64,000 bases of DNA. Origin: Halomonas sp. KG2 (GTDB lineage Bacteria > Pseudomonadota > Gammaproteobacteria > Pseudomonadales > Halomonadaceae). How positions within the stretch are numbered: position 1 is the stretch's first letter; each line of letters opens with the position of its first letter. The DNA lies in NCBI GenBank assembly GCA_030440445.1, contig CP098528.1, forward strand, positions 3,906,001 to 3,970,000. The letters are read 5' to 3'. Below are positions 46,104 through 63,117 of the stretch, piece by piece. The notes below the pieces were generated by a model, which was given only the letters and a program-made list of their open reading frames with translations, was not told the DNA's origin and ran no database searches. The position numbers and the translations under genes are program-made.

Positions 46104-46508
46104 ACGCTTTCTCCCTTGGTTAGCCCATTTCCAGCGTCATGACCAAAACAGTCACATTTTTACCCTTGGTTATTGGACGCTGGGCATTATTACTGACATG
46201 CGTCGTCGCGCCAGATAGCAGTTTAGGATCTAACGCGGCGACCGCCAGTTACTATTCAACCTTCGATTCAATTGGGTTGTTTAACTACAACACTACCCTT
46301 TTTAACAACGATTCCCCACCAAAAGTTAGAGAAAACTACTTCCAAAGTACCGCATTCAATTCACCCCACCAATGATTAACTGAAGTAGTGGGTATGGCAA
46401 TAATGATTAACCTCCAAAAACGCCCACAACAGTACTTATAACGACATTTGTCACGACGTTTGTAACGACACTCACAACAACATGCTTAACAACGCAGGAG
46501 AGTCACTT
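46104..46508. other. Divergent intergenic region pntA / pqqA
   Basis: A 405-bp stretch holding the promoters of pntA (leftward) and pqqA (rightward). A 78-codon plus-strand frame at 46139-46375 has no ribosome site, low-complexity Asn/Ser/Thr content and no family resemblance, so it is not called. The right end carries a 12-bp-period repeat (listed separately) leading into the pqqA ribosome site (gcaggag). Confidence 0.6.
46428..46493 (+). repeat. 12-bp-period repeat just upstream of pqqA
   Basis: The hexamer AACRAC (with one CACGAC variant) recurs at exactly 12-bp steps starting at 46440, 46452, 46464, 46476 and 46488; a weaker sixth copy starts at 46428. Between them lie TTTGT-like spacers. 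The array ends 15 bp before the pqqA ATG, so it lies in the leader RNA or overlaps the promoter. It is not read in frame from any start codon. Confidence 0.75.
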
Positions 46509-46580
46509 ATGTGGACCAAACCGACGTATCAGGACATGCGCCTTGGCTTTGAAGTAACGCTGTATATCTCTACCCGCTAA
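46509..46580 (+). CDS. pqqA: PQQ precursor peptide PqqA
   Basis: A 23-residue peptide, too short for routine gene calling. It begins 'MWTKPTYQDMRLGFEVTLYI' and has the invariant Glu15 and Tyr19 (three residues between) that PqqE joins and that become the PQQ backbone. aggag lies 9 bp before the ATG. It is the first gene of pqqABCDE and is followed by a hairpin that should make pqqA mRNA more abundant than the rest. Confidence 0.97.
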   Translation: MWTKPTYQDMRLGFEVTLYISTR

Positions 46581-46691: not shown

Positions 46692-47615
46692 ATGCAGATT
46701 TTAGTTCTTGGGGCTGCCGCAGGTGGCGGCTTTCCCCAATGGAATTGCAACTGCCCTAACTGCTACCACGCTCGCCTGGGCAGTGCAGATCATCAACCTC
46801 GCACTCAATCATCGATTGCGTTAAGCGTGGATGGCAAGCAGTGGTTGCTATGCAATGCGTCCCCAGATATTCGCGCTCAGCTCAATGCCAACCCGGAATT
46901 ATGGCCAAGCGACCTGCGTGGCAGTGGTATTCGTGGTGTGCTACTGGTAGATGCCCAAATCGACCATGTCACCGGGCTGCTCTCCTTAAGGGAAGGCTGC
47001 CCGTTAGAGGTCTGGTGCACACCTAATGTACATCGCGATTTATCGACAGGTTTTCCGCTATTTCCGATGCTGGAACACTGGGGCGGACTGCACTGGAAGC
47101 CGATTGAGCTGGAAGGTCATCAGGAAGTTGTCGAGTTTTCGATTCCCTTTCTGCCAGATATCGCGCTGACCGCCTTTGCGCTGCACAGCAATGCACCGCC
47201 CTACTCACCACGGCGCGGCGCGCCCTCCTGTGGCGATAATTTAGGGCTGTATATTGTTGATCGTCGTAGCGGCAAGTCGCTGTGCTACGCCCCTGGGCTT
47301 GGCAACCCGACACCACTGGCCATGCGTTTCTTAAACGCCGCAGATGTGGTGATGGTGGATGGCACCCTGTGGGAAGACGACGAAATGCAGGCACTTGGCG
47401 TTGGCACCTCCACAGGCCAACAGATGGGTCACCTCGCGCTTAATGGCAGCAGCGGTATGTGTGCGCTATTGAACGAGCTACCCAGCAGCACGCGGCGTAT
47501 TTTGATTCATATCAACAACACCAACCCGATTTTGGACGGCGCTAGCGATGCAGCGAAAACATTGCAGGCCGCAGGCATCGAAACCGCTTACGACGGAATG
47601 AAACTGACGTTTTAG
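46692..47615 (+). CDS. pqqB: PQQ biosynthesis protein PqqB
   Basis: A 307-residue metallo-beta-lactamase-fold protein. 'LVLGAAAGGGFPQWNCNCPNC' at the start carries the CxCxxC structural Zn site. 'VDAQIDHVTGLLSLREG' replaces the classic HxHxDH, as in PqqB. 'YIVDRRSGKSLCYAPGLG', 'VMVDGTLWEDDEM' and 'HINNTNPILD' follow. PqqB is proposed to hydroxylate the Tyr of the PqqA-derived dipeptide. Strong ribosome site (ggagg). Confidence 0.97.
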   Translation: MQILVLGAAAGGGFPQWNCNCPNCYHARLGSADHQPRTQSSIALSVDGKQWLLCNASPDIRAQLNANPELWPSDLRGSGIRGVLLVDAQIDHVTGLLSLREGCPLEVWCTPNVHRDLSTGFPLFPMLEHWGGLHWKPIELEGHQEVVEFSIPFLPDIALTAFALHSNAPPYSPRRGAPSCGDNLGLYIVDRRSGKSLCYAPGLGNPTPLAMRFLNAADVVMVDGTLWEDDEMQALGVGTSTGQQMGHLALNGSSGMCALLNELPSSTRRILIHINNTNPILDGASDAAKTLQAAGIETAYDGMKLTF

Positions 47616-47944
47616 GTCGACTTCCACAGACCTTAAACACTCTCTTATCTTAGAATTATTGAGTATTAATCTATTAACATCCAGACCTAAACCTTAGATT
47701 AAAAAAGCACTAGGTTAGTAGAATTTAAAAAACAGCAGGGCGGTAAAAGGCGATAAAAAAGACCCTGATAAAATTAAACCAAAATAAGCATATAACTTTA
47801 TAAAATAATTCAAACAGAGCGAGCTATAACCAAAAAACCTGTTTCATTAAACAAACCCTATGCATAAAAAATGGCTAAAAATAAAAACCATTTAAATCAG
47901 CAATATATACATTAGATATTACAAAAATAACCAGGAACTCGACT
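47616..47944. other. AT-rich gap between pqqB and pqqC
   Basis: A 329-bp stretch with no ORF, strikingly A+T-rich compared with both neighbours and with many A-runs. pqqB and pqqC normally lie close together, so this gap is unusual. It could hold a second promoter for pqqCDE or a regulatory leader. A small possible stem (AAATGG / CCATTT, near 47868-47894) is present. The pqqC ribosome site (agga) lies at its end. Confidence 0.6.
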
Positions 47945-48733
47945 ATGGCGATGACAGCGATAACGCCCAGTGCTTCTGCCACCCCGCTCAGCCGGGAGGC
48001 GTTCCGTGAAGCGCTAATGGGTAAAGGGCAGTACTACCATCTTAATCACCCCTTTCAGCAGGCGATGGCCAACGGCGAGCTTACCCAGGAACAACTACAA
48101 GGCTGGGTGGCTAATCGCTTTTACTACCAGTTGATGATTCCCCAAAAAGATGCCGCACTACTGGCCAACTGCCCAGATGCCGCCACCCGCAGGCGATGGG
48201 TGCAGCGCCTGCTTGACCACGACGGCCACGCCGGAGATGAAGGCGGGATTGAAGCTTGGTTAGCCCTAGGTGAAGCCGTAGGTTTACCGCGTCATACGTT
48301 GCTTTCCCAGGAACGTGTGCTACCCGGCGTGCGCTTTGCGGTGGATGCCTACCGCCACTTTGTCGCCCGTGCCCCCTGGCAGGAAGCGGCGATCTCATCG
48401 CTTACCGAGCTGTTTGCGCCACTTGCCCACCAAAACCGCCTGGACACCTGGCCCCAGCACTATCCGTGGATTAACGAGCAAGGCTATCGCTATTTTCGGA
48501 AGCGGCTCAGCGAAGCACGCCGAGACGTCGAGCACGGTCTGGAAATCGCTTTAGGCGTATGTACCACGGTGGCGCTGCAGCAGCGCGCGCTGGATATTCT
48601 GCAATTTAAGCTCGATGTGCTGTGGAGCATGTTGGATGCCATGACCATGGCCTATCAGTTAGACCGCCCGCCTTACCACACCGTCACCCGTAAAGCGGTG
48701 TATCACCGTGGGCTTGAGCACTCACATTACTAG
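47945..48733 (+). CDS. pqqC: Pyrroloquinoline-quinone synthase PqqC
   Basis: A 262-residue all-helical oxidase that performs the last ring closure and eight-electron oxidation to PQQ. Typical stretches: '[25 protein letters not shown]', '[25 protein letters not shown]', '[10 protein letters not shown]', '[20 protein letters not shown]' and '[11 protein letters not shown]'. Cofactor-free; the His and Arg residues that clamp substrate are conserved. The next gene, pqqD, is 31 bp away. Confidence 0.97.
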
Positions 48734-48764
48734 GCAATGATCGACTAGCGTTGGGGAATTCACC

Positions 48765-49067
48765 ATGTCACAGCAACTCGTCATATCACATCAAGATATT
48801 TACCAGCTGCGACGCGGTTGGCGCTTACAGTGGGAGGCCATTCAGGGCTGCCACGTTATTCTCTACCCCGAAGGTATGGTCAAGCTCAGCGCGACTGCCG
48901 GTGCGATTCTTGAGCAGGTCGATGGCCATCACTCCATCGCCGATATTATCGCCACCCTACAGCAGCGCTACCCGGGCGCGGAGTCCTTAGCAGACGATGT
49001 CATGCAGTTTATCGATGAAGCCCGCGGCAACGGCTGGCTAGCCGTGAAGGAGGTTCATTGTGATTAA
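48765..49067 (+). CDS. pqqD: PqqA-binding chaperone PqqD
   Basis: A 100-residue protein that binds PqqA and presents it to PqqE. The core '[42 protein letters not shown]' matches PqqD. It contains the winged-helix RiPP-recognition fold. pqqE begins inside its 3' end (8 bp overlap), consistent with the PqqD-PqqE complex. Confidence 0.96.
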
Positions 49068-50274
49068 TAAAACGACCTCACCGCCCTTATGGCTGCTGGC
49101 GGAACTCACCTACCGCTGCCCACTGCAGTGCGCTTACTGCTCCAACCCGTTGGAATTTACCCGTTACCAAAACGAGCTGGATACCGACGCGTGGTTTAGC
49201 GTGCTGCGCCAAGCCAGGGCGATGGGGGCAGCACAGCTTGGCTTTTCCGGCGGCGAACCGTTGATTCGTCAAGACCTGGAAGCGCTGGTAGGCGAAGCAC
49301 GCCGGCTAGGCTTTTACACCAACCTGCTGACCTCCGGTGTAGGCCTCACTGCCCAGCGGGTAGACGCCTTGGCAGAAGCAGGCCTGGATCATATCCAGAT
49401 TAGCCTGCAAGCCGCCGACCCCGAACTAGCCCAGGCGCTGGCAGGTTCTGCCAAGGCCCACGCCAACAAGCTGGCCATGGCCAAAGCGGTCAAGGCCGCT
49501 GGCTATCCCATGGTATTAAACGTGGTCTTGCATCGGCACAATATCGATCAAATTGGCGATCTGATTGCCCTCTGCGATGAGCTAGGTGCGGATGCAGTTG
49601 AACTGGCCAACTGCCAGTATTACGGCTGGGCGTTTTTGAACCGCCAGGCGTTGATGCCTACCCGTGAACAGCTGGTACGCGCCGAGGCGGAAACCAATCG
49701 CTGGCGTGAAACACTGGCGGCACGTGGCCGCGATATGTCATTACTATTTGTGGTGCCGGACTACTTTGAGCAAGCGCCTAAAGCGTGCATGGGTGGTTGG
49801 GGCAGTATCTTTATGACCGTAGCCCCAGATGGCGCCGTGTTGCCCTGTCACAGCGCCAGGGAACTACCGATGGCATTTCCGAACGTCAAAGAGACGTCGC
49901 TACAGGACATTTGGTACCAAAGCGATGCATTCAACCGTTTTCGTGGCACCCAGTGGATGCCTACGCTTTGCCAACAGTGCGACGACCGCGATAAAGACCA
50001 TGGCGGCTGCCGCTGCCAAGCCTATTTATTAACCGGCGATATGAACGCCACCGACCCTGTGTGCCAGCACTCTCCCCAGCATGGGTTGTTAGACAGCCTA
50101 ATCGCAGAAAACAGCCACAACACGCCCGATCAAGCGACGCTGATTCCCCGCAATGCCCGCCAATCAAAGCAGTTGCAATCAAAGAAGTTACAAAGTCAGG
50201 CTGAACGTCAAAGCCAAAATAGCTCAGCAGAGACGTTGTCCCGCCAACCACTTGAGCTGATTTATCGACAATAA
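49060..50274 (+). CDS. pqqE: PqqA peptide cyclase PqqE (radical SAM)
   Basis: A 404-residue radical SAM/SPASM enzyme that links Glu15 and Tyr19 of PqqA. Radical SAM cluster: '[14 protein letters not shown]' (CX3CX2C). SPASM cysteines: 'ACMGGWGS', '[11 protein letters not shown]', '[19 protein letters not shown]'. Start is GTG 49060 with aaggagg upstream. The last 50 or so residues are a Gln/Ser-rich tail of low complexity ('[20 protein letters not shown]'), longer than usual. Confidence 0.97.
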
Positions 50275-50298: not shown

Positions 50299-50895
50299 TT
50301 AAGGCTCGCAGGTGGCTCGCTCAGCATGAGCGGGCAACTGCGGGCAAACGGCTGCTAACGACTGTCCACTCGCTTGCCAGCCATCCACCCCATTTGGGTA
50401 CCAATAGAGCTCTTCATAGCCCAGTGCCTCAGCGCGCCGTGCAGCATTCCAGGAAAGCCAGCAGTCAGCACGGCAGAAGAACACTAGCGGCGCGGCGTCA
50501 GCACGCTCACGCTGCGCATCCAGTGCCGTGGTGAAATAATCCACCCACTGCTCTTCCAAACTAGCCGCGCCCACATTAGGCAGCCAAATACTGCCTGGAA
50601 TCGTTAAGTGCGCACTGTCTTGCAGAAAAAGACCGTTATGCCAGGGCAGCGCATAGACATCCACCAGGATCACTGGCGGTGACGCCAGCAGCGCTTGAAA
50701 AGCATGCTCATCTAACGTGGTCACCCCTGGTAGCGGCGCGGTAACCGGCGCTTTAAAAGGCGGCAGGCGGTAGCCTTCTTGGTTAAATGCCGCGGCGGGC
50801 GCTTCAGCGCCTGCCACCCCACTGAACACGCCACTTCCCCACACCAAACAGAGGAGGTAGCGGCACACAAAGTGCGCCGAAGGTTGTGTCGTCAT
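50299..50895 (-). CDS. PQQ-dependent catabolism-associated CXXCW rhodanese-like protein
   Basis: A 198-residue secreted protein. The signal peptide (about 25 residues) is followed by a rhodanese-like domain in which the active loop is replaced by 'FFCRADCWLSWNAARRAEALGY', the CXXCW motif seen in proteins next to PQQ-dependent dehydrogenases. 'PNVGAASLEEQWVDYF' and 'LYWYPNGVDGWQ' also fit. Start ATG 50895 (ggga upstream); a longer in-frame start overlaps the preceding gene. Function unknown; a periplasmic redox or sulfur-handling role in the quinoprotein system is plausible. It ends 24 bp from pqqE, convergent. Confidence 0.9.
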   Translation of the reverse strand: MTTQPSAHFVCRYLLCLVWGSGVFSGVAGAEAPAAAFNQEGYRLPPFKAPVTAPLPGVTTLDEHAFQALLASPPVILVDVYALPWHNGLFLQDSAHLTIPGSIWLPNVGAASLEEQWVDYFTTALDAQRERADAAPLVFFCRADCWLSWNAARRAEALGYEELYWYPNGVDGWQASGQSLAAVCPQLPAHAERATCEP

Positions 50896-50902
50896 GGTGA
50901 CA

Positions 50903-51589
50903 TTACTCCCAATCAAACGGACAGCCGGTACAGCCCTCCATTTGGGCCATTTGGAAGTTGCCGTAGTGGATGCGTGCACCGGTCATATCAGCATCATTGA
51001 GGCGCGTGATGTTCATTTTGGCTTCTTGCAGATTAGCATCGCGCAGGTCCGCACCGATCAGGTTGACCTTATTCATCCAGGCCATCTCCAGATTGCTGCC
51101 CATCAACGTTGCTCCTTGCATGCTGGCCCCTGAAAGCCGGGCAAACTCAAGGTTAGCACCGGTCAAATCGGCATAATCAAATGTCGCTCCCTGGGCATAA
51201 ATACTCCAGCTATCCAGCCCAACCAAACTGGCATGGGAAAGATCGGCACCGCGTAAATGCGTGTTGGGCATGCGCGCACGATTGAGGTTGGCATTTCTCA
51301 GTGATGCGCCTTCAAAATCAACGCTGCGTAGGTTGCTATGGCGGAAATCCGAGCCTTCTAGGTTACTGCCCGCAAAGTTAGCGCCCTGTAGGTCAAGATT
51401 AGAAAAGTCGCCGCCGGATAAATCCATATTGGCGCACTGAGTACCTGGCACCAACTCACAGCCGTTATGCACTGGCGGTTGATACGCTTCAACATAATCG
51501 TCGGCGACAACGCTGCCTATCGCGCTAAAACAGAGAAAAACCGCCGATGCTTGGCGGCTCCATAAAGGCAGAGCATCGCGAGTTATCAT
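50903..51589 (-). CDS. Secreted pentapeptide-repeat protein of the quinoprotein locus
   Basis: A 228-residue protein with a signal peptide (about 30 residues, 'AVFLCFSAIGSVVADD') followed by a run of more than 25 A(D/N)LXX-type pentapeptides ('ANMDLSGGDFSNLDLQGANF', 'LTGANLEFARLSGASMQG'), expected to form a right-handed beta-helix in the periplasm. Two other ATGs (51604, 51619) are possible starts; 51589 gives the most compact signal peptide. It precedes the CXXCW gene by 7 bp. No enzymatic residues are seen; perhaps a scaffold or interaction surface. Function unknown. Confidence 0.88.
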   Translation of the reverse strand: MITRDALPLWSRQASAVFLCFSAIGSVVADDYVEAYQPPVHNGCELVPGTQCANMDLSGGDFSNLDLQGANFAGSNLEGSDFRHSNLRSVDFEGASLRNANLNRARMPNTHLRGADLSHASLVGLDSWSIYAQGATFDYADLTGANLEFARLSGASMQGATLMGSNLEMAWMNKVNLIGADLRDANLQEAKMNITRLNDADMTGARIHYGNFQMAQMEGCTGCPFDWE

Positions 51590-51627
51590 TGTTATTCTCT
51601 CCATTACCGTTATCTCCATTCAAAAAA

Positions 51628-51645
51628 GGGCGGCAAAAGCCGCCC
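51628..51645 (-). terminator. Terminator after the quinoprotein dehydrogenase gene
   Basis: GGGCGGC (51628-51634) pairs with GCCGCCC (51639-51645), loop AAAA; on the minus strand six T follow. It lies between the dehydrogenase stop and the pentapeptide-repeat gene and could fully or partly end the transcript. Confidence 0.9.
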
Positions 51646-51661
51646 AAGAGGTGCCAATAAC

Positions 51662-53563
51662 TTAACGGTTAGCCAGATCCTGAACGAAGGAAGGCAATTT
51701 GAAGACCCAGAACGAGCCGCCCTGAGCAATCGGCCGGGTCAGTTCAGCCATATCACCGCCCCATAGCGGCACTGCACCGCCATAACCTGCAGTAACACCA
51801 ATGTACTGCTCACCGTCCATCTCCCAAGTAACCGGTGGTGAAATGATGCCGGTGCCTACCTGGAACTTCCAAAGCTCTTCACCGGTTTCTGCATGGAATG
51901 CTTTTAAGTAGCCATCGCCAGTACCGGTAAACACCAAGTCACCGTGGGTCGCTAGCACGCCTGCCCACAGCGGCATAGGCTCTTTATGCTCCCAGGCGTA
52001 CTCACCGGTAACCGGATCAACGGCACGCAGAATACCGACGTGGTCGTCGTACATACGTTTAATGCGGAAGCCCATACCCAGGTAAGCCGCGCCTTCCACG
52101 TACTCAACTTCCTCGGTCCAATAATCTTCTTTCCAGTGGTTACCCGGCACGTAGAACAGCCCGGTGTCTTCGCTGTAAGCCATTGGGTTCCAGTTTTTAC
52201 CACCCAGGAACGGTGGTGAAACTTCAACCGGCTCAGAACGGGTTTGTCCCTCTTCCAAGCGCGGTGGGCGCTGGCCTTCAGCCTCAACCGGACGGCCGGT
52301 TTCCAGGTCAATATGGGTGGCCCAGGTAATGTTATCGACAAATGGGAAGGCGTTGATAAGCTCGCCGTTGGTGCGATCAGTAACATAGAAGAAGCCGTTA
52401 CGGTCGGCGTGGGCACCTGCATTCACCGTTTGGCCATTCTCATCTTCGTACTCAAACAAAACGATTTCGTTATTGCCTGAGAAGTCCCAGGTATCATTGG
52501 GGGTATGCTGATAGAACCACTTCACTTCGCCAGTCGAAGGGTCGATACCCAGTTGGCCAGAGGTGTAAAGGCTGTCGTAGTCAGACGGGTCGCCGTCTTC
52601 CGAGGTGCGTGCCCAGCCATTCCAGGGAGCGGGGTTACCGGCACCAATGATGATGGTATTGGTATCAGGGTCGAAACTGGCGCTCTGCCACGGCGCACCG
52701 CCACCTTGGCTCCAGGCTTGTACTTTGCCGGTGTCGCTATCTGGGTCATCGGGCCATGAAGGTGCGTTGGCATCGCCTGTCGGCGTGCTCTCTTCGCCGT
52801 TCAAACGTCCCATATGGCCTTCAACAAAGGGCCGCATCCAAATCTCTTCGCCGGTATCAGGGTCACGGGCATACAGCTTACCCACAATGCCGAACTCATC
52901 TCCCGAAGAGCCATGAATCAGCAATACGCGACCTGTTTCGCTATCTTCGACAATGGTTGGTGCACCGGTCATGGTGTAGCCCGCGCGGTGGTCACCAAAG
53001 CGCTCACGCCACACCACCTCACCGGTATCTTTATTCAGCGCCACGATGCCAGCATCCAGCGTGCCGAAGAATACCTTATCGCCGTAAATGGCCGCACCGC
53101 GGTTCACCACGTCACAGCAGGGGCGAATATCGCTGGGCAGGCGATGGTTGTAGGACCACAGCCGCTGGCCGGTGCGCGCATCAATTGCAAAAATACGTGA
53201 ATAGGAGCCGGTGACATAAATAACGCCTTCATGAATCAGCGCCTGAGACTCCTGGCCACGCTGCATTTCATCGCCAAACGAGTGAGACCACGCGGGGGTC
53301 AGCATCTCGACGTTATCGGCGTTAATTTGATTAAGCGGGCTATAGCGCTGTGCTTTCACGCCCATGCCGTACATCAACACCGTTTCAGTGTTGTTATGGT
53401 CATTGAGAATATCGTCCCAGGTCACCTCGCTGGCGTGGGCTGTCAGCGCAATGCCCCCGACGCCTAAGGCAGAAGCGTAAGCAACGGCGGCGGTGAGTGT
53501 ACGCAGGCGAAAGGGCCACGAAATTTTGCGGGCTGACGTGTTGTTATTGATAGCGTCTGTCAT
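51662..53563 (-). CDS. exaA: PQQ-dependent alcohol (ethanol/methanol-type) dehydrogenase, Ca-type
   Basis: A 633-residue periplasmic eight-bladed propeller quinoprotein. Signal peptide of about 44 residues ends 'ALTAHASEV'. Key residues: vicinal disulfide Cys149-Cys150 ('DIRPCCDVV'); metal ligands Glu223 ('SGDEFG') and Asn310 ('GAGNPAPWN'); catalytic Asp360 in 'NDTWDFSGNNE'. The residue two after the catalytic Asp is Ser362, not Asp, which in this family indicates Ca2+ rather than lanthanide use. No C-terminal haem domain, so electrons go to a separate cytochrome, divergently encoded. Start ATG 53563 chosen over an upstream extension without a signal-like start. Confidence 0.96.
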   Translation of the reverse strand: MTDAINNNTSARKISWPFRLRTLTAAVAYASALGVGGIALTAHASEVTWDDILNDHNNTETVLMYGMGVKAQRYSPLNQINADNVEMLTPAWSHSFGDEMQRGQESQALIHEGVIYVTGSYSRIFAIDARTGQRLWSYNHRLPSDIRPCCDVVNRGAAIYGDKVFFGTLDAGIVALNKDTGEVVWRERFGDHRAGYTMTGAPTIVEDSETGRVLLIHGSSGDEFGIVGKLYARDPDTGEEIWMRPFVEGHMGRLNGEESTPTGDANAPSWPDDPDSDTGKVQAWSQGGGAPWQSASFDPDTNTIIIGAGNPAPWNGWARTSEDGDPSDYDSLYTSGQLGIDPSTGEVKWFYQHTPNDTWDFSGNNEIVLFEYEDENGQTVNAGAHADRNGFFYVTDRTNGELINAFPFVDNITWATHIDLETGRPVEAEGQRPPRLEEGQTRSEPVEVSPPFLGGKNWNPMAYSEDTGLFYVPGNHWKEDYWTEEVEYVEGAAYLGMGFRIKRMYDDHVGILRAVDPVTGEYAWEHKEPMPLWAGVLATHGDLVFTGTGDGYLKAFHAETGEELWKFQVGTGIISPPVTWEMDGEQYIGVTAGYGGAVPLWGGDMAELTRPIAQGGSFWVFKLPSFVQDLANR

Positions 53564-53824
53564 GGGTTTTCCATCCGAGTAATGATCACAATGCAATGGC
53601 TGCAAAGCGGCCAAGCTGCTGCTTGCGTGGTGCCAGCAAGACTAAGTCCAGCTTAGAAGCTCGGATAACAAACCAATCTACCCCTCCAGTCGCGTTCTCA
53701 TCCTGATTTAGCACTACTTCCAAAGGAGGAGCCTAGCGATGCCTAAGGTGCTATAGGTTCGGAAGGCCTGCCTGCCTAAGCTCACTCAAGTGACGATACA
53801 TTGATCCCCTGAGGAGCATTTCCC

Positions 53825-54331
53825 ATGACCATTACAAAAACCGTACTTAAAGAACCCGTACTGGCAAAAACAATCTCCGCAACATTGCCCGTACGCCTCA
53901 GCAGCCAAGTGGGCGCTATCGCTGTTGCCGCGTTGCTGGCCTCACCGCTGGCCTGGTCTCACGGCAGCGTGACTCCTCAAGCCGTTGATATTAAAGACCT
54001 CGAACGCTTAGGTGACGAATGGCGGGAAGAGAACCCCTACCGTGATCACCCCCAGCAAGAACTTGCCATCGATATTGGTGCCCGCGCTTACAATAGCAAC
54101 TGCGCCGCTTGCCACGGGCTAGAAGCGAAATCCGGCGGCATCGCTCCCGACCTGCGCGAGCTGGAAAATGGCGCATGGGGCGATGAGTGGTTCAAAGAGT
54201 TGGTCACCAATGGTTCCGAACGCAACGGCCGTGTGCTAATGCCGCGCATGTCCGATTACGTTAGCCAAGAAGGGCTGTGGGCCATTCGCACGTGGTTGGA
54301 AACGGTCAGCATGGAAACTATCGAACAATAA
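53825..54331 (+). CDS. Cytochrome c, electron acceptor of the quinoprotein dehydrogenase
   Basis: A 168-residue c-type cytochrome (ExaB/PedF-like). A long N-terminal signal (about 45 residues, ending near 'PLAWSHGS') precedes a single haem site 'CAACHGLEAKSGG'; the axial Met is likely in 'VLMPRMSDYVS'. The flanks 'QELAIDIGARAYNSN' and 'LWAIRTWLE' match PQQ-linked cytochromes. It is divergent from the dehydrogenase gene (261 bp between starts) and begins the plus-strand accessory operon. Ribosome site: gagga. Confidence 0.94.
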   Translation: MTITKTVLKEPVLAKTISATLPVRLSSQVGAIAVAALLASPLAWSHGSVTPQAVDIKDLERLGDEWREENPYRDHPQQELAIDIGARAYNSNCAACHGLEAKSGGIAPDLRELENGAWGDEWFKELVTNGSERNGRVLMPRMSDYVSQEGLWAIRTWLETVSMETIEQ

Positions 54332-54351
54332 TCCCAACGCTGGGAGGCACC

Positions 54352-55197
54352 ATGGCAACCCTAACCGCCATCATCACGTTACAACGGCTCGCCGCGACGT
54401 TCGCCGCCCCCCTTGCCCTTCCACTCGCGGCGCTTTGCTGGCTACTGCTCGCACTGCCGACCACCGCGCTAGCCACAGCCACAGCGAGTACGGCTGAACA
54501 GGATCCGTTTAACTCCTTTATGTGGCCTGTGTACCGCGAGCGCTTTCTGGGCGATGCCCCCGTGGTGTTTGATGAACGCGTCATCGTTAACGCGCCGGGG
54601 TTCGCCGAAGACTCAGGACAAGTGCCCCTTGAACTAGATGCCAGCGCCTTAGAAGCCAGCGGCGAGCCAATCACGGACATTATTGCCTGGGTGGATCTCA
54701 ACCCGATTCCCCGCCTGTTCCGCTACTCCCCGATGAGCCATGGATTAGCCAAGCTATCGTTAAATATTCGCTTGGAACAAGCCTCCGCGGTGCGCGTAGC
54801 AGTGAAACAGGGCGATACCTGGCATGTGGGCGGCACCTACATTGAAGCGGAAGGTGGCGGCTGCACCACACCCGGCATTGCCAGCGCCGACACCGATTGG
54901 GAAACCACCTTCGGCGAGCTGCAGGGTCGGCTATTTGCCAATGAGGACGAGCAGCGCCTGCGGGTGCGCCTTTCTCACCCCATGGACAGCGGCTTAATCC
55001 CCAGCCAGCCTGCCTTTTATGTGCAGTCGTTTGAACTGTTGGATCAGCAGGGCCAGCAAGTGGCCGCCTTGGATATCGACGCATCGGTGAGCGCCAATCC
55101 CACCTTAGGGCTGCATATGCGCCCCTCACCGGGCGGTTATGTGATTGGCGCGCGGGACAACAATGGCAACCGCTTTTCTATTGGTCTGCAGCCATGA
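54352..55197 (+). CDS. Quinoprotein dehydrogenase-associated SoxYZ-like carrier protein
   Basis: A 281-residue exported protein: signal peptide of about 42 residues, then a fused SoxY-like (about 55-175) and SoxZ-like (about 185-281) pair. The SoxY part ends in 'EAEGGGCTTP' with Cys171, comparable to the carrier Cys of SoxY; the SoxZ part contains 'VRLSHPMDSG' and 'LGLHMRPSPGG'. Known from families next to PQQ-dependent dehydrogenases; what it carries is unknown. Start ATG 54352 has gggagg upstream. It overlaps the next gene by four bases. Confidence 0.9.
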   Translation: MATLTAIITLQRLAATFAAPLALPLAALCWLLLALPTTALATATASTAEQDPFNSFMWPVYRERFLGDAPVVFDERVIVNAPGFAEDSGQVPLELDASALEASGEPITDIIAWVDLNPIPRLFRYSPMSHGLAKLSLNIRLEQASAVRVAVKQGDTWHVGGTYIEAEGGGCTTPGIASADTDWETTFGELQGRLFANEDEQRLRVRLSHPMDSGLIPSQPAFYVQSFELLDQQGQQVAALDIDASVSANPTLGLHMRPSPGGYVIGARDNNGNRFSIGLQP

Positions 55198-56138
55198 AAA
55201 CCTGTTTTCTGGCCGCCTTCAGTACACTGCTGATCACGCCGCTGGCAGCCAGCGAACCGGTGATGTTCTGCGAACGTCCGCTAACCGCCCAACCGATCGC
55301 GGAAAACACCTGGATGGTGGAAGGCGTAAGAGAAGAGCTCTCCACCAGCAACTGCGGCCATATTGGCAACCAAGCGTTTATTGCTACGCCCAGTGGTGTC
55401 ATCCTCATCGACAGCGGCAGCAGCCCACACTTTGGCGACGCACTCAAAACACTGATTGCTCAGCACACCGCTCAACCCGTACGCTGGGTGTTGAATACCC
55501 ATCACCACCCTGACCACTCTTTTGGTAATGCTGCCTTCGGCGAGGCACAGCACCTCACCCTAGCCAGCACTCGTGCGTTGATGGCTCGCGACCGGGACGC
55601 ACTGATCGATAATGTAGCGCGGCTGACCGGATTGAGTCTGGATCACTCGTCTATTGCTCTGCCCGACGTGATTGAGGCTGGCAAGATAACTCTGGGAAGC
55701 TATCCGCTCACGCTGTTCGCATTGAGCGGCCATAGCGGTGGTGACCTGGTGATTATGGACCATGCCACCGACGTGCTTTTTTTAGGCGACATGGGCTTCT
55801 ACCAACGTGCTGCCGCCACTGCCCACAGCCCAAGCCTGCAACAGTGGCAGGAAGAACTGAATGATCTGCGCGCGCTCAACGCCAGCACCGCAGTACCGGG
55901 TCACGGCCCCAGTGCGCCGCCCGAAACGATCATTGGCCAAACCACGCATTACCTGGAATGGCTGGACCAACGTCTCAGTGATGTGGCTAGCGAAGGGCTA
56001 GGTGCCAATCATGCCTTGGCCGTTGAAATTCCCGACATGTTTAGCACCATGGCACTCAGCGAATATGAGTTCACCCGCAGCGTAATGCAGCTTTACCCAC
56101 GCTACGAAGCACGGTTGCTGTGGGGCACCCCACACTAA
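55194..56138 (+). CDS. Quinoprotein relay system zinc metallohydrolase (MBL fold)
   Basis: A 314-residue metallo-beta-lactamase-fold protein with a short signal peptide ('FSTLLITPLAASEP', about 20 residues) and the Zn motif 'THHHPDHSFGN' (His103, His105, Asp107, His108). Downstream His are in 'LSGHSGGDLVI' and 'VPGHGPSAPPE'. Similar to SoxH-type hydrolases and always found with the SoxYZ-like carrier; the two genes overlap (ATGA). Proposed to act on an adduct on the carrier Cys; that is inference. Confidence 0.9.
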   Translation: MKTCFLAAFSTLLITPLAASEPVMFCERPLTAQPIAENTWMVEGVREELSTSNCGHIGNQAFIATPSGVILIDSGSSPHFGDALKTLIAQHTAQPVRWVLNTHHHPDHSFGNAAFGEAQHLTLASTRALMARDRDALIDNVARLTGLSLDHSSIALPDVIEAGKITLGSYPLTLFALSGHSGGDLVIMDHATDVLFLGDMGFYQRAAATAHSPSLQQWQEELNDLRALNASTAVPGHGPSAPPETIIGQTTHYLEWLDQRLSDVASEGLGANHALAVEIPDMFSTMALSEYEFTRSVMQLYPRYEARLLWGTPH

Positions 56139-56149
56139 GGAGCACGCCT

Positions 56150-57985
56150 ATGCTGCTTACCCTGGCAGATGCCGCCGAACCCACTGACACCTTGGCCGAG
56201 TTACACAGCGATGCCCAAGCTGTTTACTGGCTCGCTCGTTGCCCGCAAACGGGCGGCATGCAACTTTGGCAGTGGCGCGCCGACAGCAACGAGACGCCGC
56301 GCTGTGTAGTAGAAGATGCCGTGGGTAGCCGCGTGAATCAGTACGGCGGTGGCAGCTACACGCCCCTACTAGAGGGCGTCGTGTGGGTGCGCCAGCACGA
56401 TCAAGCCATCATGCAGCTCGACCGCCACGGTGTAAGCCACTGCTGGCAACAGCGCCCGCAAACAGCCTACGGCGGGCTATGCGCCGACCCTAAGCGTCAG
56501 CGAGTGATTGCGGTAGAAGAGGATCATCAAGGTCAACGGCTGGTCGCCATTAATGGCGACAACAGAGCTGGCAAAAACAGCACTGACAACAACAGGCAAG
56601 TGTTGGCTGAAGGCGCTGACTTCTATGGCGCAGCGGTATTAAGCGATGACGGCAACTACCTCGCCTGGGTCAGCTGGTCGTTGCCGCACATGCCTTGGCA
56701 ACGCAGCCAGCTACATCTCGCGCGGGTGACCACCACAGGCCAGCTTGAAATACTGGAGCATTGGGATTTTGGCGCAGCAATTAGCCAGCCACAGTTTGGC
56801 CCTCACAACACGCTGATCTGTATGAGCGATCACGCTGGCTGGTGGCAACCCTGGCAGGTAAATTTGGCCACCCCTGTGTGCCTGAGCAGTGCCCCGGTTG
56901 ACCACATCACCACACCGTGGCAACTGGGTGAGCGCCAGCACCTATGGCGAGATAATCGGCAGGTATACTGCCAACTGCACCAGGGGGCAGCTCAGCTTTA
57001 TCGCCGTTGCGGCGAGCAGGTGGAAGCACTGTTACCAGCCCCCGGCCGCGTGGCAAGCATCACGCTAGCCAAGCACGGTGACTATGCCATTGTGCAAAGC
57101 GCCACCAGCGGCGCTCAGCTGATACGCTTCAACGACAATGGCTCACGCAACTGCCTAGTAGGTAAGGTCGAGGGTAACGCAACGAAAAGCCTAGTGACTG
57201 CAAACTCCTCCATCGCAGAATGGCTGGAAACCCCTGTTGGCAACGAAGGCGAAACGGTTCACGGCTTTTTCTACTCAGCCTTAGCTAACCGCGCTGCGCC
57301 GCTGATTGTACGCGTTCATGGCGGGCCCACCGCCGCCGCCTACCCTGTTTACGACCCGCTGGTAGCCTATTGGCAACAGCAGGGCTTTCACGTATTGGAT
57401 ATCAACCCCCGTGGCAGCGGCAACTTTGGCCGCCGCTATCGCGAATGCTTAGCCGGCCAGTGGGGCATCAGCGATACCAACGATGTCATCGCCCTGGTTA
57501 ACGCCGCCAGCACACGCTTCGCGATTGATACAGCACGCTGTTTTATTCGCGGCCAAAGCGCTGGCGGGTTGACTGCTCTTAATGCCTTGGCGGCCACGCC
57601 GCTATTTGCTGCGGCCACTAGCCTATACGGGGTAACCGATGCATTAACGTTAGCGGCACAAACACACCGCTTTGAATCCGGTTACCTGGGCTGGCTAATC
57701 GGAGACGAGACCCAGCTCGCCCAGCGCAGCCCTAGCTACCACGTCACCCGTTGTCAGCGCCCATTACGGGCACTGTTTATCCAGGGTGGCAAAGACGCCG
57801 TCGTGGTGCCAGAACAAACTCATGCCATGGCGCGGCATATCGAACTCCACGGTGGCGAGGCACAAACACTGCTGTTTGATAACGAGTATCACGGCATTCG
57901 CCACCCCAAAGCTCGCCAAACCATGCTGGCCCGCGAGCTAGCCTTTTATCAATCTAGCCACCTAACGACAGCACCAAGGTCGTAG
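56150..57985 (+). CDS. S9 family (prolyl oligopeptidase-type) peptidase, PqqH/PqqM-like
   Basis: A 611-residue cytosolic peptidase: N-terminal propeller (about 10-355) and C-terminal alpha/beta-hydrolase (about 370-610). Catalytic Ser is in 'IRGQSAGGLTAL', Asp in 'IQGGKDAVVVP', His in 'NEYHGIRHP'. 'LIVRVHGGPTAAAYPVYDPL' and 'DINPRGSGNFG' are typical of S9. In pseudomonads a gene of this type sits in pqq clusters and may help process PqqA-derived peptides. Start ATG 56150 (aaggag) preferred over a frame extension into the previous gene. Confidence 0.93.
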   Translation: MLLTLADAAEPTDTLAELHSDAQAVYWLARCPQTGGMQLWQWRADSNETPRCVVEDAVGSRVNQYGGGSYTPLLEGVVWVRQHDQAIMQLDRHGVSHCWQQRPQTAYGGLCADPKRQRVIAVEEDHQGQRLVAINGDNRAGKNSTDNNRQVLAEGADFYGAAVLSDDGNYLAWVSWSLPHMPWQRSQLHLARVTTTGQLEILEHWDFGAAISQPQFGPHNTLICMSDHAGWWQPWQVNLATPVCLSSAPVDHITTPWQLGERQHLWRDNRQVYCQLHQGAAQLYRRCGEQVEALLPAPGRVASITLAKHGDYAIVQSATSGAQLIRFNDNGSRNCLVGKVEGNATKSLVTANSSIAEWLETPVGNEGETVHGFFYSALANRAAPLIVRVHGGPTAAAYPVYDPLVAYWQQQGFHVLDINPRGSGNFGRRYRECLAGQWGISDTNDVIALVNAASTRFAIDTARCFIRGQSAGGLTALNALAATPLFAAATSLYGVTDALTLAAQTHRFESGYLGWLIGDETQLAQRSPSYHVTRCQRPLRALFIQGGKDAVVVPEQTHAMARHIELHGGEAQTLLFDNEYHGIRHPKARQTMLARELAFYQSSHLTTAPRS

Positions 57986-58044
57986 CGCAACAATCCCTGA
58001 AGGTGCTTAAGATAATGGTTAACAACGATAAACGAGACCGCCCC

Positions 58045-59208
58045 ATGACTTCGCCGCTCACACAACTTCGTAAGTTTGTCGCTCCTGAAATTATTTTTGG
58101 CGACGGGGCGCGCCACGCTGCGGGTAACTACGCCACGACATTCGGGGCAGAAAAGGTACTCCTGGTCTCCGACCCCGGCGTGCTGCTGGCGGGTTGGGTC
58201 GCCGATATTGAAGCCAAGCTGCTGGAAGCCAATATTGCCGTTGAGCGCTTTACCGCCGTATCACCTAACCCGCGGGTCGATGAGATTATGGCCGGTGCCG
58301 AGGTCTACCGTGAAACCGGCTGCAAAGCAATTGTGGCGGTGGGCGGCGGCAGCCCCATGGACTGCGCCAAAGGGATTGGCATCGTCACCGCCCACGGTGG
58401 CCACATTCTTGATTTTGAAGGTGTGGATACGATTAGCGTGCCCATTCCGCCGCTAATTTTCATTCCCTCAACTGCGGGCACGTCGGCGGATATTTCCCAG
58501 TTTGCGATTATTTCCGACCAACAGCGACGCATGAAATTCTCAATCATCAGCAAAGCCGTGGTGCCGGATGTGTCGCTGATCGACCCAGAAGTCACCATGA
58601 CCATGTCGCCCTATCTCACCGCGTGTACCGGGGTCGATGCGCTAGTGCATGCCATCGAAGCGTTTGTTTCAACCGGTAGTGGCCCGCTCACCGATGCCCA
58701 TGCCTTAGAAGCCATGCGCTTAATCAGCAGCCATCTTGAAGCACTGGTGGCGAACCCGGCCGACGGCGAGCTGCGTGCCCAGGTAATGCTGGGCAGTATG
58801 CAAGCAGGGCTGGCGTTTTCAAACGCCATTTTGGGCGCGGTACATGCGATGTCCCATAGTTTAGGTGGCTTCCTGGATTTACCCCACGGCTTATGCAATG
58901 CCATGCTGCTAGAGCACGTGGTGGCTTATAACTACGAAGCCGCCCCTGACCGCTTTAAGCGGGTTGCCGAGGCCGTAGGTATCGACTGTCGGGGGTTGTC
59001 GCAGCAGCAGATCAAAAAAGCCCTGTTTCAGTACTTAGTCGACTTAAAACATGCCGTTGGCCTAGGCGGAACCCTTGGTGTGATGGGCGTCTCGCGTAGC
59101 GACGTGCCTTTTCTCACTAACCATGCGCTGGGTGATCCCTGCATCTTGACTAATCCACGCCGTTCCAGCTCAAGAGACGTGGCGGTGGTTTACGAAGAGG
59201 CACTATGA
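58045..59208 (+). CDS. ercA: Fe-type alcohol dehydrogenase, ErcA-like
   Basis: A 387-residue iron-containing (type III) alcohol dehydrogenase. NAD motif 'VAVGGGSPMDCAKGIGI'; metal ligands in 'DALVHAIEAF', 'HAMSHSLGG' and 'LDLPHGLCNAMLLEHV'. In Pseudomonas aeruginosa an equivalent protein (ErcA) sits between pqqH and the sensor gene ercS and affects control of ethanol oxidation, as I recall. Start chosen at ATG 58045; GTG 58003 and ATG 58015 are alternatives. It overlaps the sensor kinase gene by four bases. Confidence 0.92.
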   Translation: MTSPLTQLRKFVAPEIIFGDGARHAAGNYATTFGAEKVLLVSDPGVLLAGWVADIEAKLLEANIAVERFTAVSPNPRVDEIMAGAEVYRETGCKAIVAVGGGSPMDCAKGIGIVTAHGGHILDFEGVDTISVPIPPLIFIPSTAGTSADISQFAIISDQQRRMKFSIISKAVVPDVSLIDPEVTMTMSPYLTACTGVDALVHAIEAFVSTGSGPLTDAHALEAMRLISSHLEALVANPADGELRAQVMLGSMQAGLAFSNAILGAVHAMSHSLGGFLDLPHGLCNAMLLEHVVAYNYEAAPDRFKRVAEAVGIDCRGLSQQQIKKALFQYLVDLKHAVGLGGTLGVMGVSRSDVPFLTNHALGDPCILTNPRRSSSRDVAVVYEEAL

Positions 59209-60902
59209 AAAAAGCCAGCGATCCCTCGGGCTTTTCGGTCAGTGACCTGCTTGGGCTTGGCCAGCAGTCGGCGCGTAAAAGCTACTATCGCGAGCTTTCC
59301 GTACGCTTAGAAGAGCTTGAGGTGGAGCGCAACCGCTATAAATGGCTGTTCGAAAACGCGCTACACGGTATTTTTCAGGCATCGCTATCCGGCAAACTGC
59401 GCGCCGCTAACCCGGCGCTTGCCGCCATGCTTGATGACAGTAGCGTGGCGCATACACTTGAGCGCTGCGCGCGCTTTGACGCGCTGTTTGTTAACGCATC
59501 TACAGGGCAACAGCTGCGCGACCTGCTGCTCGCGCAAGGCCACGTAACCGGCCAAACCACCTGGCTGCAGGGCGCATCCGGGCATCAGGTACCCGTGGCA
59601 ATTACCCTAATACGTAAGCCCGCCGAGCTTGCCGGGGACGAAGACCTGATCGAAGGCTTTGTGGCGGATATTACCGAGCGTGAACGCGCTCGCCAGCATT
59701 TAGAAACCCTCAACGCCCATTTGGAAGCCCGGGTAGTTGACCGCACCCAAGCGCTTGAACGGCTCAACGAGGAGCTTAGAAGCGCTCGCGATGCCGCAGA
59801 GTTTGCTAACCAAAGTAAAGACCGCTACCTAGCCGCCGCTAGCCATGACCTGCTACAGCCCATGAACGCTGCACGCTTATTGGTAGCCTCGCTACAGGAA
59901 CGGCTGACCGACAGCGAGAACCTGTCTTTGATTGAGAGTGTGCAAAACTCATTGGAAGGCGCCGAAGCAATTCTTTCCGATCTGTTGGATATTTCACGGC
60001 TGGATCACGGCCAAGTACAGCCACAACTTCGCCACTTTAAAATCGACGATATCCTCAGCAGTCTGGCGGATGAATTTTCCCCGGTGGCGCAACGTAAGGG
60101 GCTAACGCTGCGCTACGTGCCTTCTCATCAAGCGGTAACCAGCGACCCTTATCTACTCAGCCGCATTGTGCGCAACTTTCTTGCTAACGCCTGCCGCTAT
60201 ACCCACCGCGGCGGCATCTGCCTTGGTGTCCGCCGTCATAACGACGACAGCCTGGCTGTGCAGGTTGTCGATAGCGGTATTGGTATTCCCGAAAGTGACT
60301 ACCAGCTTATTTTTCGCGAATTTCACCAACTTAACGCTACCCGTGCACGGGACCGCCAGGGCGTTGGCCTGGGGCTTGCCATTGTCGAACGGATTAGCCA
60401 GCGCCTTGAACATCCGCTCTCTGTGCATTCTGCCCCCGGCCAAGGCTCCTGCTTTGCTGTTACGGTGCCGCGTGCCGGCGCTATTTCCTTTAGCCAAGCC
60501 CCCGCTCCCAGCGCGCCGCTCTCCGCTGGCGATGAGTTTGAAGGGCTTCGCGTGCTGATCCTGGATAATGAACCAACGATTTTGCAAGGCATGGCGCTGC
60601 TGTTAAGTGAATGGCAGATCAGTTGCGATACGGCCCTGGATGTCGATACCGCTAAAGCCTGTCAGGAAGCACCGGATATGCTGCTGGTCGACCTGCACTT
60701 AGATGACAATATGACCGGCCTGGAGGCTATTCGCCAACTTCGCCAGCACTGGCACGACCCGCACCTGCCAGCCGCTATTCTCAGCGCCGACCGCTCTGAC
60801 CACTGGCAAAGGCGACTACGCCATGCTGGCGTGCCGCAGTTAAACAAACCCGTTCGTCCCGGCAAACTGCGCGCGCTGCTGCGCAGCCTGCTCAATGGCT
60901 AA
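59205..60902 (+). CDS. ercS: Soluble hybrid sensor histidine kinase, ErcS-like
   Basis: A 565-residue protein without membrane segments. Coiled start (about 25-50), PAS (about 45-165), HisKA with the phospho-acceptor His in 'AASHDLLQPMNAARLL' (about 205-275), HATPase (about 320-435) with 'VVDSGIGIPES' and 'GVGLGLAIVERIS', and a receiver domain (about 450-565) with the Asp in 'LLVDLHLDD' and Lys in 'LNKPVRPG'. The first receiver acid pair is 'DNE', partly changed. Cytosolic sensor for the ethanol/PQQ regulon by synteny with Pseudomonas ercS. It overlaps pqqF by 8 bp. Confidence 0.93.
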   Translation: MKKASDPSGFSVSDLLGLGQQSARKSYYRELSVRLEELEVERNRYKWLFENALHGIFQASLSGKLRAANPALAAMLDDSSVAHTLERCARFDALFVNASTGQQLRDLLLAQGHVTGQTTWLQGASGHQVPVAITLIRKPAELAGDEDLIEGFVADITERERARQHLETLNAHLEARVVDRTQALERLNEELRSARDAAEFANQSKDRYLAAASHDLLQPMNAARLLVASLQERLTDSENLSLIESVQNSLEGAEAILSDLLDISRLDHGQVQPQLRHFKIDDILSSLADEFSPVAQRKGLTLRYVPSHQAVTSDPYLLSRIVRNFLANACRYTHRGGICLGVRRHNDDSLAVQVVDSGIGIPESDYQLIFREFHQLNATRARDRQGVGLGLAIVERISQRLEHPLSVHSAPGQGSCFAVTVPRAGAISFSQAPAPSAPLSAGDEFEGLRVLILDNEPTILQGMALLLSEWQISCDTALDVDTAKACQEAPDMLLVDLHLDDNMTGLEAIRQLRQHWHDPHLPAAILSADRSDHWQRRLRHAGVPQLNKPVRPGKLRALLRSLLNG

Positions 60903-63117
60903 GCTTCGTTTCCAGCCAACCTTTATTTCCCTGCCTAACGGAGCACAGGGAGCGCTGGCCCAGGCGCCCCACTTAACCCGCGCTCACGTTAGCATCGCCA
61001 TTGCGGCGGGCTATCTGGATGAGTCGCGCACCCTGCCAGGGCTGGCTCATTTGCTCGAGCACGTGCTCACTACCGCGCCGCTGGAAGCATCTTCTAACAT
61101 CAGCCTGCTTACTTGGTTTGCCCAACACCAAGGCAGCCTGAACGCCCATACCGATGACTACGTCACCGATGTACATTTCTCGATACCCGCAAACAAACTA
61201 GAAGTCGCGGCGCTCACGGTTGCCAGCCAGCTCGCCAGGCCTGCGTTTTCGCCATCCGTCATTGGTGCCGAAGTCGCCGCCATCGATGCCGAGTGGCAGG
61301 CCCGCCAGAACAGTTCGGCGATGCAACGGCTGTTGGCCATCGCCACGCTCAGCGACCCTCAACATATCGGCGCTAGCTGCCGTCACGGTAACGCGCAAAC
61401 CCTAGGCAGCGACATGGCGCTATTATTTGAGGCGCTCACCGCGTTTCATCGCGACTACTACCACAGCGGCCGCGTTAGCATCGCCCTGATTAGCCCTTGG
61501 GACACGGAAACGATGGCTCGGCTGATTAAACGCATGGCAACGCTGTTTAGCCCACCAACCCCCAGCGCTCCTTCGCTTGCCATTACGCCCCGTTGGAACC
61601 GCCTGCCCCACGCGAAGATAGCCAGGACGGGCAACGCCGTTGAGCTACTGTGGCCACTGCCCTCGGCCGTCGCTCGTCATCAACTTACCGCCCTTGGCGA
61701 CACTGCTGATCGGTTAAATCAAGGCTTCCTAGTGGAGCAGTTACCTGACTCGATTACCGACTACCACGCAGCGCTGTCCCCGAGTGGAGCGACAGACGCC
61801 TTTAGCTTAATGTTAAGCGGCACTGCGACGCAGGAGCAGATGAAAGCCCTTGCGGCTGACCTAAGTGAGCGTTTAGCAGCCTTCTTCGCAACCCTGTCCG
61901 GAACAACACCTAACGATCATGGCAACTACTGGCAGCCACCCGCTGATACGGTGCAGTTAGCCCCGGCTTGGTTTGCACACGCCCGCCACCAAGCGCTAGC
62001 TCGTCGCTTTACTGCGCAGCCCCCTGAGCATCAGCCAGGCGCAAGCCCGTTTGCCGCTAACAATGCCCGTTGGCTATTAGGTAACGCGTCTCCATCGCCC
62101 TCATCACCCGCTTTTGATGCTTTTGATAGACAACCAGCGCCTTGCCCTGCCGTGCAGCGCTGGTGCGGTCAGTACGGTGTTAGTGATGATTTCGCGGCAC
62201 TTGCCACCACCGCCTGGGCGGCCTGCTTTGTGCCCGGCGCAGTGATTGTACCCAGCCCGCTTACCGCTCAGCGGCTGGCGCTTCAGGCGATTGTCTTCAA
62301 GCAAGAGAACTCGCCCCACGGCAGTTGGGTGATAGCGATGGGTAGTCAAGCCAACCACGCTATGGTGGCGCTGTTGGAAGACGCCGTGTTAGCTGCCTCT
62401 AAGGCTCAACAAGGGCTGCTGGCTCAGCAGTTGATACAGCGCTTAACACCACTGCCTGCCGAGCCTGTGGTATGGGTTTCCCATAACACAGGCGCCGCTG
62501 CCGTTTGCCACGCGCTAGCAAACCTGGCGAGCCGCGTCGCAATACGCGCTGAGCAGCCTCCCCCTGCTAGCCCAGCGACCAGTACCGCCATCATGCGGAC
62601 ACTGAGCCTGCCGGGCACTCCCAGCCAGCGATTACTATTGGCACTTGCGGAGCAGCACCACAGCGCAGCATTTTTTCAGCAGGCGCGTTATGACCATCAC
62701 TTGGGCTATGTAGCGGCGGTTCGCAGGGGTGACGGCGCGCCTTGTTCACTTGGCTATGTCGTGCAAGCTAGTCATGCAGGGCAAGTCAGCAAAAACGCGG
62801 ACTCGGCAGGGAGGAAGCTGAGAGAGGAAAAACGGATAGCGGAAAAGCTACGGTCGATCACCGACGCCCTCTGGCAAGAGTCTGATAGCGTTCTGCAGGC
62901 ACAACTGCCAGCGCTAACACCGCCTGAAACGCCACTCGCGGCGCTGGTTCTTCAGTGGCAAAGTCTCTTGGCAGGTACCCATCAGCCACTGCATCGCCTC
63001 GGAGAACAACGCATCGATTCACAGGCCCTTACCAATTTACTCTCCCAGATAAACACCTTGAGCCACTGGCAAACCCATTGGCTGGATAGCGCTGGCCATT
63101 ATTTTGTCAACGATTGA
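60895..63117 (+). CDS. pqqF: PqqA-processing Zn peptidase PqqF (M16)
   Basis: A 740-residue M16 (insulinase) family peptidase. The inverted Zn motif '[11 protein letters not shown]' is at about residues 50-60; the third ligand Glu is in the '[12 protein letters not shown]' helix about 75 residues later. The remaining halves are degenerate, as in other PqqF. It is thought to liberate the cross-linked dipeptide from PqqA with PqqG-type help. Placed far from pqqABCDE, after the sensor kinase, and overlaps the end of the convergent regulator gene by 11 bp. Confidence 0.93.

Follow-up and report, generated by a model that had tools for sequence, protein, structure and literature searches.

Alcohol dehydrogenases dependent on pyrroloquinoline quinone (PQQ) drive methanol, ethanol, and lanthanide-dependent metabolism. 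Here we analyzed a 64,000-nucleotide stretch of the Halomonas sp. KG2 genome (CP098528.1, positions 3,906,001 to 3,970,000; hereafter the window), in which such an enzyme is accompanied by a fused SoxYZ-like carrier, a SoxH-like Zn hydrolase, and a rhodanese-fold CXXCW protein (together, the trio). Among the closest described systems is the ped cluster of Pseudomonas putida KT2440 (PP_2666, PP_2677, PP_2678, pedD, pedE, and pedF), which shares accessory families and ErcA/ErcS-type regulators with the window. The homologs PP_2666, PP_2677, PP_2678, and PedD are covered by a 2026 review of this cluster (PMC12997753; this and the other papers cited are represented by the sections available). According to the review, PP_2666, PP_2677, and PP_2678 are conserved alongside lanthanide- and PQQ-dependent dehydrogenases, a thioredoxin-like gene joins their homologs in M. 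extorquens, and the proposed roles are redox maturation or the shielding of PQQ from sulfur. SoxYZ fusions with soxH have also been described adjoining genes for PQQ alcohol dehydrogenases or xoxF, with a carbon-metabolism or detoxifying role suggested (PMC11237559), and the genes around such a fusion in Hyphomicrobium point rather to a PQQ-dependent alcohol system (PMC11582611). Since the accessory genes appear in the 2026 review and in a 2024 paper, genes of this kind are already known. The accessory families carry curated names, and no paper giving the trio a tested function was found in the open literature, most subscription papers lying outside the search.

Compared with the KT2440 cluster, the window has one Ca-type dehydrogenase only, has no gene between PedF and the carrier, where KT2440 has pedG, and has its PedD and CXXCW genes following the dehydrogenase on the dehydrogenase's strand. 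Like the SoxYZ-S2 and SoxYZ-S4 fusions with soxH (PMC11237559), it combines a fused carrier and a SoxH-like hydrolase beside a PQQ enzyme, but the genome around the set is of the Halomonas type and has no SoxB match. The CXXCW protein and reductase neighbors are not treated for SoxYZ-S2/S4 in the available sections of that paper. We propose, with about even confidence, that the carrier, the Zn hydrolase, and the rhodanese-fold dithiol protein form a co-inherited periplasmic thiol module with an adduct-clearing cycle.

Results

Seven families were searched in 200 Pseudomonadota genomes, with counts uncorrected for phylogeny, and only carriers that were fused, above the cut-off, and without internal stops were counted. 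The carrier model (TIGR04557) was passed in 44 genomes, in 21 of them only across stop codons; all 21 were excluded, leaving 23. Seven of these stop-split cases were read, and all seven had a SoxY-like end, GGCxG followed by a stop, ahead of the second part. Besides the 23 genomes with the carrier, the dehydrogenase was found in 41, PqqE in 35, the CXXCW protein in 22, SoxB in 23, and PedF in 16. Both the dehydrogenase and PqqE were present in all 23 carrier genomes, and the CXXCW protein was detected above its cut-off in 22 of the 23 and in none of the other 177. The hydrolase model (TIGR04558) was passed in eight genomes, which are exactly the carrier genomes that also have PedF; in the remaining 15 carrier genomes, the hydrolase scored 144 to 204 bits to the same model. 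In a second sample of 121 genomes from the window's family, the carrier and the CXXCW protein occurred in the identical six genomes, all included among the 24 with a dehydrogenase, and neither was present in any of the other 12 genomes belonging to the window's genus (0/12 each). These results bear out the earlier note on this DNA, which had expected the carrier, the CXXCW protein, and the hydrolase to be associated genome-wide with PQQ dehydrogenases.

The carrier (54352..55197, plus strand, 281 amino acids) matched TIGR04557, the quinoprotein-associated SoxYZ-like carrier, with 187.2 bits (cut-off, 140). With the ATG start at 54352, the number of the conserved Cys171 given in the earlier note is exact; the residue lies in a GGGCTTP motif, is the one cysteine of the mature protein, and was conserved in 25/25 copies at the SoxY carrier-Cys position. 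In comparison with the Sox thiosulfate system (SoxYZ, SoxB, SoxAX, and SoxH), the carrier fold and Cys position are the same, but the window carrier is fused and has an internal GGC loop, whereas canonical SoxY has a C-terminal GGC(G/A/S)G arm and a separate SoxZ. The score against the SoxY_true model was 36 bits (cut-off, 125), and no SoxB match was found in the window genome (G000) at E 1e-60. On these grounds, the carrier was rejected as a thiosulfate-oxidation SoxYZ. A SoxZ entry was absent among the carrier matches listed, although sequence comparison finds SoxZ. SoxYZ fusions below the cut-off at ten places in the window's family (107 to 132 bits) were not counted as carriers. Two of them were read (L155 1390-2175 and L157 1468-2397), and both carried an SGC motif, marking a different SoxYZ-fusion clade; they adjoin YeeE-like and UspA-like genes (assigned by eye). 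Among the eight genomes with an SGC-type fusion only, three had no PQQ alcohol dehydrogenase above the cut-off.

The hydrolase (55194..56138, plus strand), of the metallo-beta-lactamase fold, matched TIGR04558, quinoprotein relay Zn metallohydrolase 1, with 356.1 bits (cut-off, 300). Its description as a SoxH-like Zn hydrolase held: scored against the ligand set that we take to bind dinuclear Zn, the window copy retained 7/7 ligands, and the set was complete in 23/24 hydrolases. The best solved match was an uncharacterized superfamily member (8d2z), followed mostly by beta-lactamases, and these structural matches leave the substrate unsettled. A hydrolase matching TIGR04558 lay within 600 bases of 21/25 carrier copies. 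The correlation of distances between carrier and hydrolase was 0.954 across 22 genomes and 0.915 after PqqE was removed; the corresponding values for carrier and CXXCW protein were 0.752 and 0.622. In the seven SoxH_1-type genomes, the partial correlation between hydrolase and CXXCW protein was not significant (0.55, p 0.15). The carrier and hydrolase thus gave the strongest of the measured correlations, and the two co-evolve. In G019, a carrier-linked hydrolase (L136 8743-10014) lacks three of the seven Zn ligands while the carrier Cys is retained; G019 is also the sole carrier genome without the CXXCW protein.

The CXXCW protein (50299..50895, minus strand; longest open reading frame from 50979) matched TIGR03865 with 170.3 bits (cut-off, 128.05). 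The motif was taken as CXXCW in the earlier note, but the spacing is actually C-X3-C-W, as in FFCRADCW of the window protein and in 19/19 aligned homologs (19 sequences from 17/22 genomes; G111, G035, G167, G187, and G190 were left out). The name of TIGR03865, not the membership of the window protein, therefore seems imprecise. The protein has a rhodanese fold, and its nearest solved relatives are rhodanese-type proteins, several of them sulfurtransferases. A weak match of 22.9 bits to NCBIfam TsoB, named a rhodanese/DsbD fusion-like selenoprotein, covered the Cys region and is suggestive only. No match was obtained when profiles of the CXXCW protein and of the thioredoxin-like protein encoded next to it in other genomes were compared (probability 9%).

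Gene calls at the loci were incomplete, with some genes missed. Two genomes, G143 and G028, carry a gene for a thioredoxin-like protein (WCPICK) and a DsbD_TM/CcdA-like gene after those for the carrier and the CXXCW protein, and a thioredoxin-like gene is present at a third locus (G143, L126). With the G143 proteins as queries, the thioredoxin-like gene was found in 3/33 sequences searched and the CcdA/DsbD-like gene in 2/33. This arrangement resembles the thioredoxin/CcdA-type reductase logic of SoxVW in the Sox system; no mention of CcdA/DsbD beside the trio was found in the open literature searched. In the window genome, a DsbD-type protein is encoded elsewhere (261.7 bits). The reductase-type neighbors in two genomes favor a reductant role, and to that extent, they fit the suggestion of the earlier note that reducing equivalents come from the CXXCW protein. 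A common protein without a Pfam match at E 0.001 was also encoded at two carrier-associated loci (L118 5553-6167 and L136 5769-6722).

The dehydrogenase (51662..53614, minus strand, start uncertain) matched TIGR03075 with 765.1 bits (cut-off, 480.05) and has a vicinal Cys-Cys pair. We take an Asp at the second position after the catalytic Asp to be diagnostic of lanthanide-type enzymes (in agreement with the title of reference 77 in PMC12997753), and this position was read in 87 dehydrogenases above the cut-off. In the window enzyme it is the Ser of WDFSG, as in Ca-type enzymes. An Asp-type enzyme was present in 21/23 carrier genomes and in 9/18 other dehydrogenase genomes (p 0.005, uncorrected for phylogeny). 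A single TIGR03075 enzyme, of the Ser type, is above the cut-off in the window genome, and in G054 all such enzymes are of the Ser or Thr type; the trio can therefore accompany Ca-type enzymes in the absence of a lanthanide-type one. With only a Ca-type enzyme and no SoxB match, the window genome argues against strictly lanthanide-tied or thiosulfate-oxidation roles. The vicinal Cys-Cys pair was found in 31/31 dehydrogenases of carrier-less genomes and in 52/56 of carrier genomes; the four enzymes without it are at L103, L104, L105, and L112, and the other 83/87 have the pair.

The pentapeptide-repeat protein (50903..51589, minus strand; longest open reading frame from 51619) is PedD-like, scored below every NCBIfam cut-off and above the Pfam pentapeptide models, and has a C-terminal CxxCPxxW motif. 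Its membership in the trio was not supported by its flank occurrence, its P. aeruginosa homolog, or its covariation with PedE. We inspected the ~10-kb flanks of 80 named CXXCW loci, mainly from Pseudomonas (L203-L282; the 80 best among at least 568), and PedD was present at 36 of them. A P. aeruginosa PedD homolog (PA1981) is listed in a table of PMC12997753, the text of which describes P. aeruginosa as lacking the other three, and PedD abundance drops together with that of PedE under La (PMC7188995). PedD is thus probably a partner of the dehydrogenase and not of the thiol cycle, and the role of a scaffold suggested in the earlier note gained no support in this analysis. The CxxCPxxW motif and two N-terminal Cys residues were seen in 5/6 aligned PedD-like sequences, the sixth of which is possibly a different pentapeptide protein. 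The PedD section of PMC12997753 makes no mention of a disulfide or redox role.

The block as a whole is an exa/ped-type PQQ alcohol-oxidation cluster. All six reading frames listed in the earlier note were open as described there, and five of the six proteins passed curated NCBIfam models, three of which are of unknown function. The remaining member, cytochrome c550 PedF (53825..54331, plus strand), matched TIGR04494 with 204.9 bits (cut-off, 122). Of the gene overlaps proposed before, the 4-base overlap of carrier and hydrolase (55194-55197) stands; those of pedD with the CXXCW gene and of pedF with the carrier gene vanish because the likely starts are ATG 50895 and ATG 54352. Signal peptides had been assigned to the accessory proteins in the earlier note. 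In a simple hydrophobicity scan, PedD, PedF, the carrier, and the hydrolase scored 2.1 to 2.4, against at most 1.94 for eight cluster genes of non-exported type, whereas two proteins were not separated from these controls: the CXXCW protein, at 1.82, and the dehydrogenase, at 1.58 with its start uncertain. Export of the latter two is predicted from the look of their N-termini and from their families.

Downstream of the hydrolase, the cluster extends on the plus strand with an S9 prolyl-oligopeptidase-family protein (56150..57985), presumably PqqH-like from its context; the Fe-ADH-like regulatory protein ErcA (58003..59208, NF041833); an NahK/ErcS-family hybrid histidine kinase (59205..60902, NF041832); and an M16 peptidase (60895..63117), which we take from context to be PqqF-like. 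Also on the plus strand lie pqqB, pqqC, pqqD, and pqqE (46692..50274; PqqE was identified with TIGR02109 and the rest from Pfam matches and gene order) and a small pqqA-like gene (46482..46580) with an E-x3-Y motif as in PMC12423496. The order from pqqB to ercS is identical in Halomonas alkaliantarctica FS-N4, Vreelandella boliviensis LC1, and Halomonas sp. SpR8, the last having ~2.3 kb extra between the CXXCW gene and pqqE.

Discussion

The proposed thiol module is based on family membership, co-occurrence, conservation, correlated divergence, and reductase-type neighbors in two genomes; the adduct, the direction of every step, and all interactions are what we infer. In such a cycle, an adduct would arise at the quinoprotein or in its surroundings and be taken up by Cys171 of the carrier; it may be a group derived from an aldehyde or acyl compound, or a sulfur species liable to attack PQQ. 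Cleavage of the adduct from the carrier would fall to the Zn hydrolase, and the C-X3-C-W protein would restore the reduced thiol with electrons from DsbD/CcdA and thioredoxin. A narrower version likens the trio to glutathione-dependent aldehyde oxidation, moved to the periplasm and to a thiol bound to protein; it is speculative and in our estimate quite unlikely. There, the carrier thiol would trap the aldehyde as a hemithioacetal, the quinoprotein would oxidize this to a carrier thioester, the Zn hydrolase would release the acid, and the C-X3-C-W protein, thioredoxin, and DsbD/CcdA would hold the thiol reduced.

Several observations weigh against the module. In each sample, 18 dehydrogenase genomes (18/41 among the 200) had no carrier, and the carrier is therefore not required by every such enzyme; G240 and G274, for example, have a Ser-type dehydrogenase with 75-76% identity and an Asp-type one, with neither carrier nor CXXCW protein. 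The samples are also phylogenetically non-independent. At the 80 CXXCW loci, no thioredoxin-like or CcdA gene was found with the G143 queries at a threshold of at least 50 bits (0/80), and the carrier and hydrolase were in the flanks of just 38; ped-type ABC-transport genes lay near 68-69 and a dehydrogenase near 62. At these loci, the CXXCW gene is thus linked more strongly to the transporter than to the carrier, although its genome-wide co-occurrence with the carrier is near perfect. In 15 genomes with a linked dehydrogenase, the partial correlation of carrier and dehydrogenase was 0.51 or 0.81 depending on the enzyme chosen, against 0.86 for carrier and hydrolase, and linkage accounts for part of the distance correlation. 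Random-barcode transposon sequencing (RB-TnSeq) of P. putida gave minimal phenotypes, in work without rare earths (PMC12997753), which argues against a simple essential role. The proximity of CXXCW and transporter genes deserves a look in its own right.

In an alternative that we consider possible but rather unlikely, the carrier would bind sulfur in the form of thiosulfate, sulfite, or persulfide and so keep it from forming adducts with PQQ, and its discharge would be the task of the SoxH-like hydrolase and the rhodanese-like protein. This is near a published idea and is consistent with the SoxYZ and rhodanese ancestry of the proteins, with the sulfurtransferases among the solved relatives of the CXXCW protein, and with SoxB being commoner in carrier genomes (8/23 versus 15/177). 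Thiosulfate inhibits methanol use in Hyphomicrobium (PMC12997753 and PMC11237559), and SoxH can replace SoxB on SoxY in one Sulfurimonas strain (PMC11237559). However, 15/23 carrier genomes, including that of the window, have no SoxB match, which argues against a tie to thiosulfate oxidation and leaves other sulfur species possible; all 23 have a PQQ dehydrogenase, and a direct role of these fusions in sulfur metabolism is argued to be unlikely in PMC11237559.

Maturation, in which the trio would make or repair the vicinal disulfide or help to place the cofactor in lanthanide-type dehydrogenases, is likewise a published idea that we find unlikely. The enrichment of Asp-type enzymes in carrier genomes and the thiol-redox neighbor genes are in its favor, but the window genome and G054 have no Asp-type enzyme, and the vicinal pair is kept in carrier-less genomes and so does not depend on the trio for its maintenance. 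The vicinal disulfide is thus not supported as the reason for the trio. Alternatively, the three proteins could be ordinary neighbors with separate or general envelope thiol tasks, traveling with pqq/xox genes by linkage and sharing no common reaction. Such a picture would suit the minimal knockout phenotypes, the CXXCW genes being found oftener near transport genes than near the carrier, the hydrolase-carrier-CXXCW runs with no dehydrogenase called in the fetched flanks (G028, G151, G055, and one locus of G143), and a further locus of G143 at which carrier and CXXCW genes are paired but the hydrolase is missing. We regard it as highly improbable; the co-occurrence holds where carrier and hydrolase are non-adjacent (G095, G091, and G167).

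This analysis narrows a loosely drawn association to three co-occurring proteins with a possible route for reductant and sets the pentapeptide protein apart from them. In the Halomonas-type case, the trio accompanies a Ca-type enzyme alone and is present without SoxB, so that knockouts could be attempted in a lanthanide-independent host. The function of the trio is thereby better bounded and testable.

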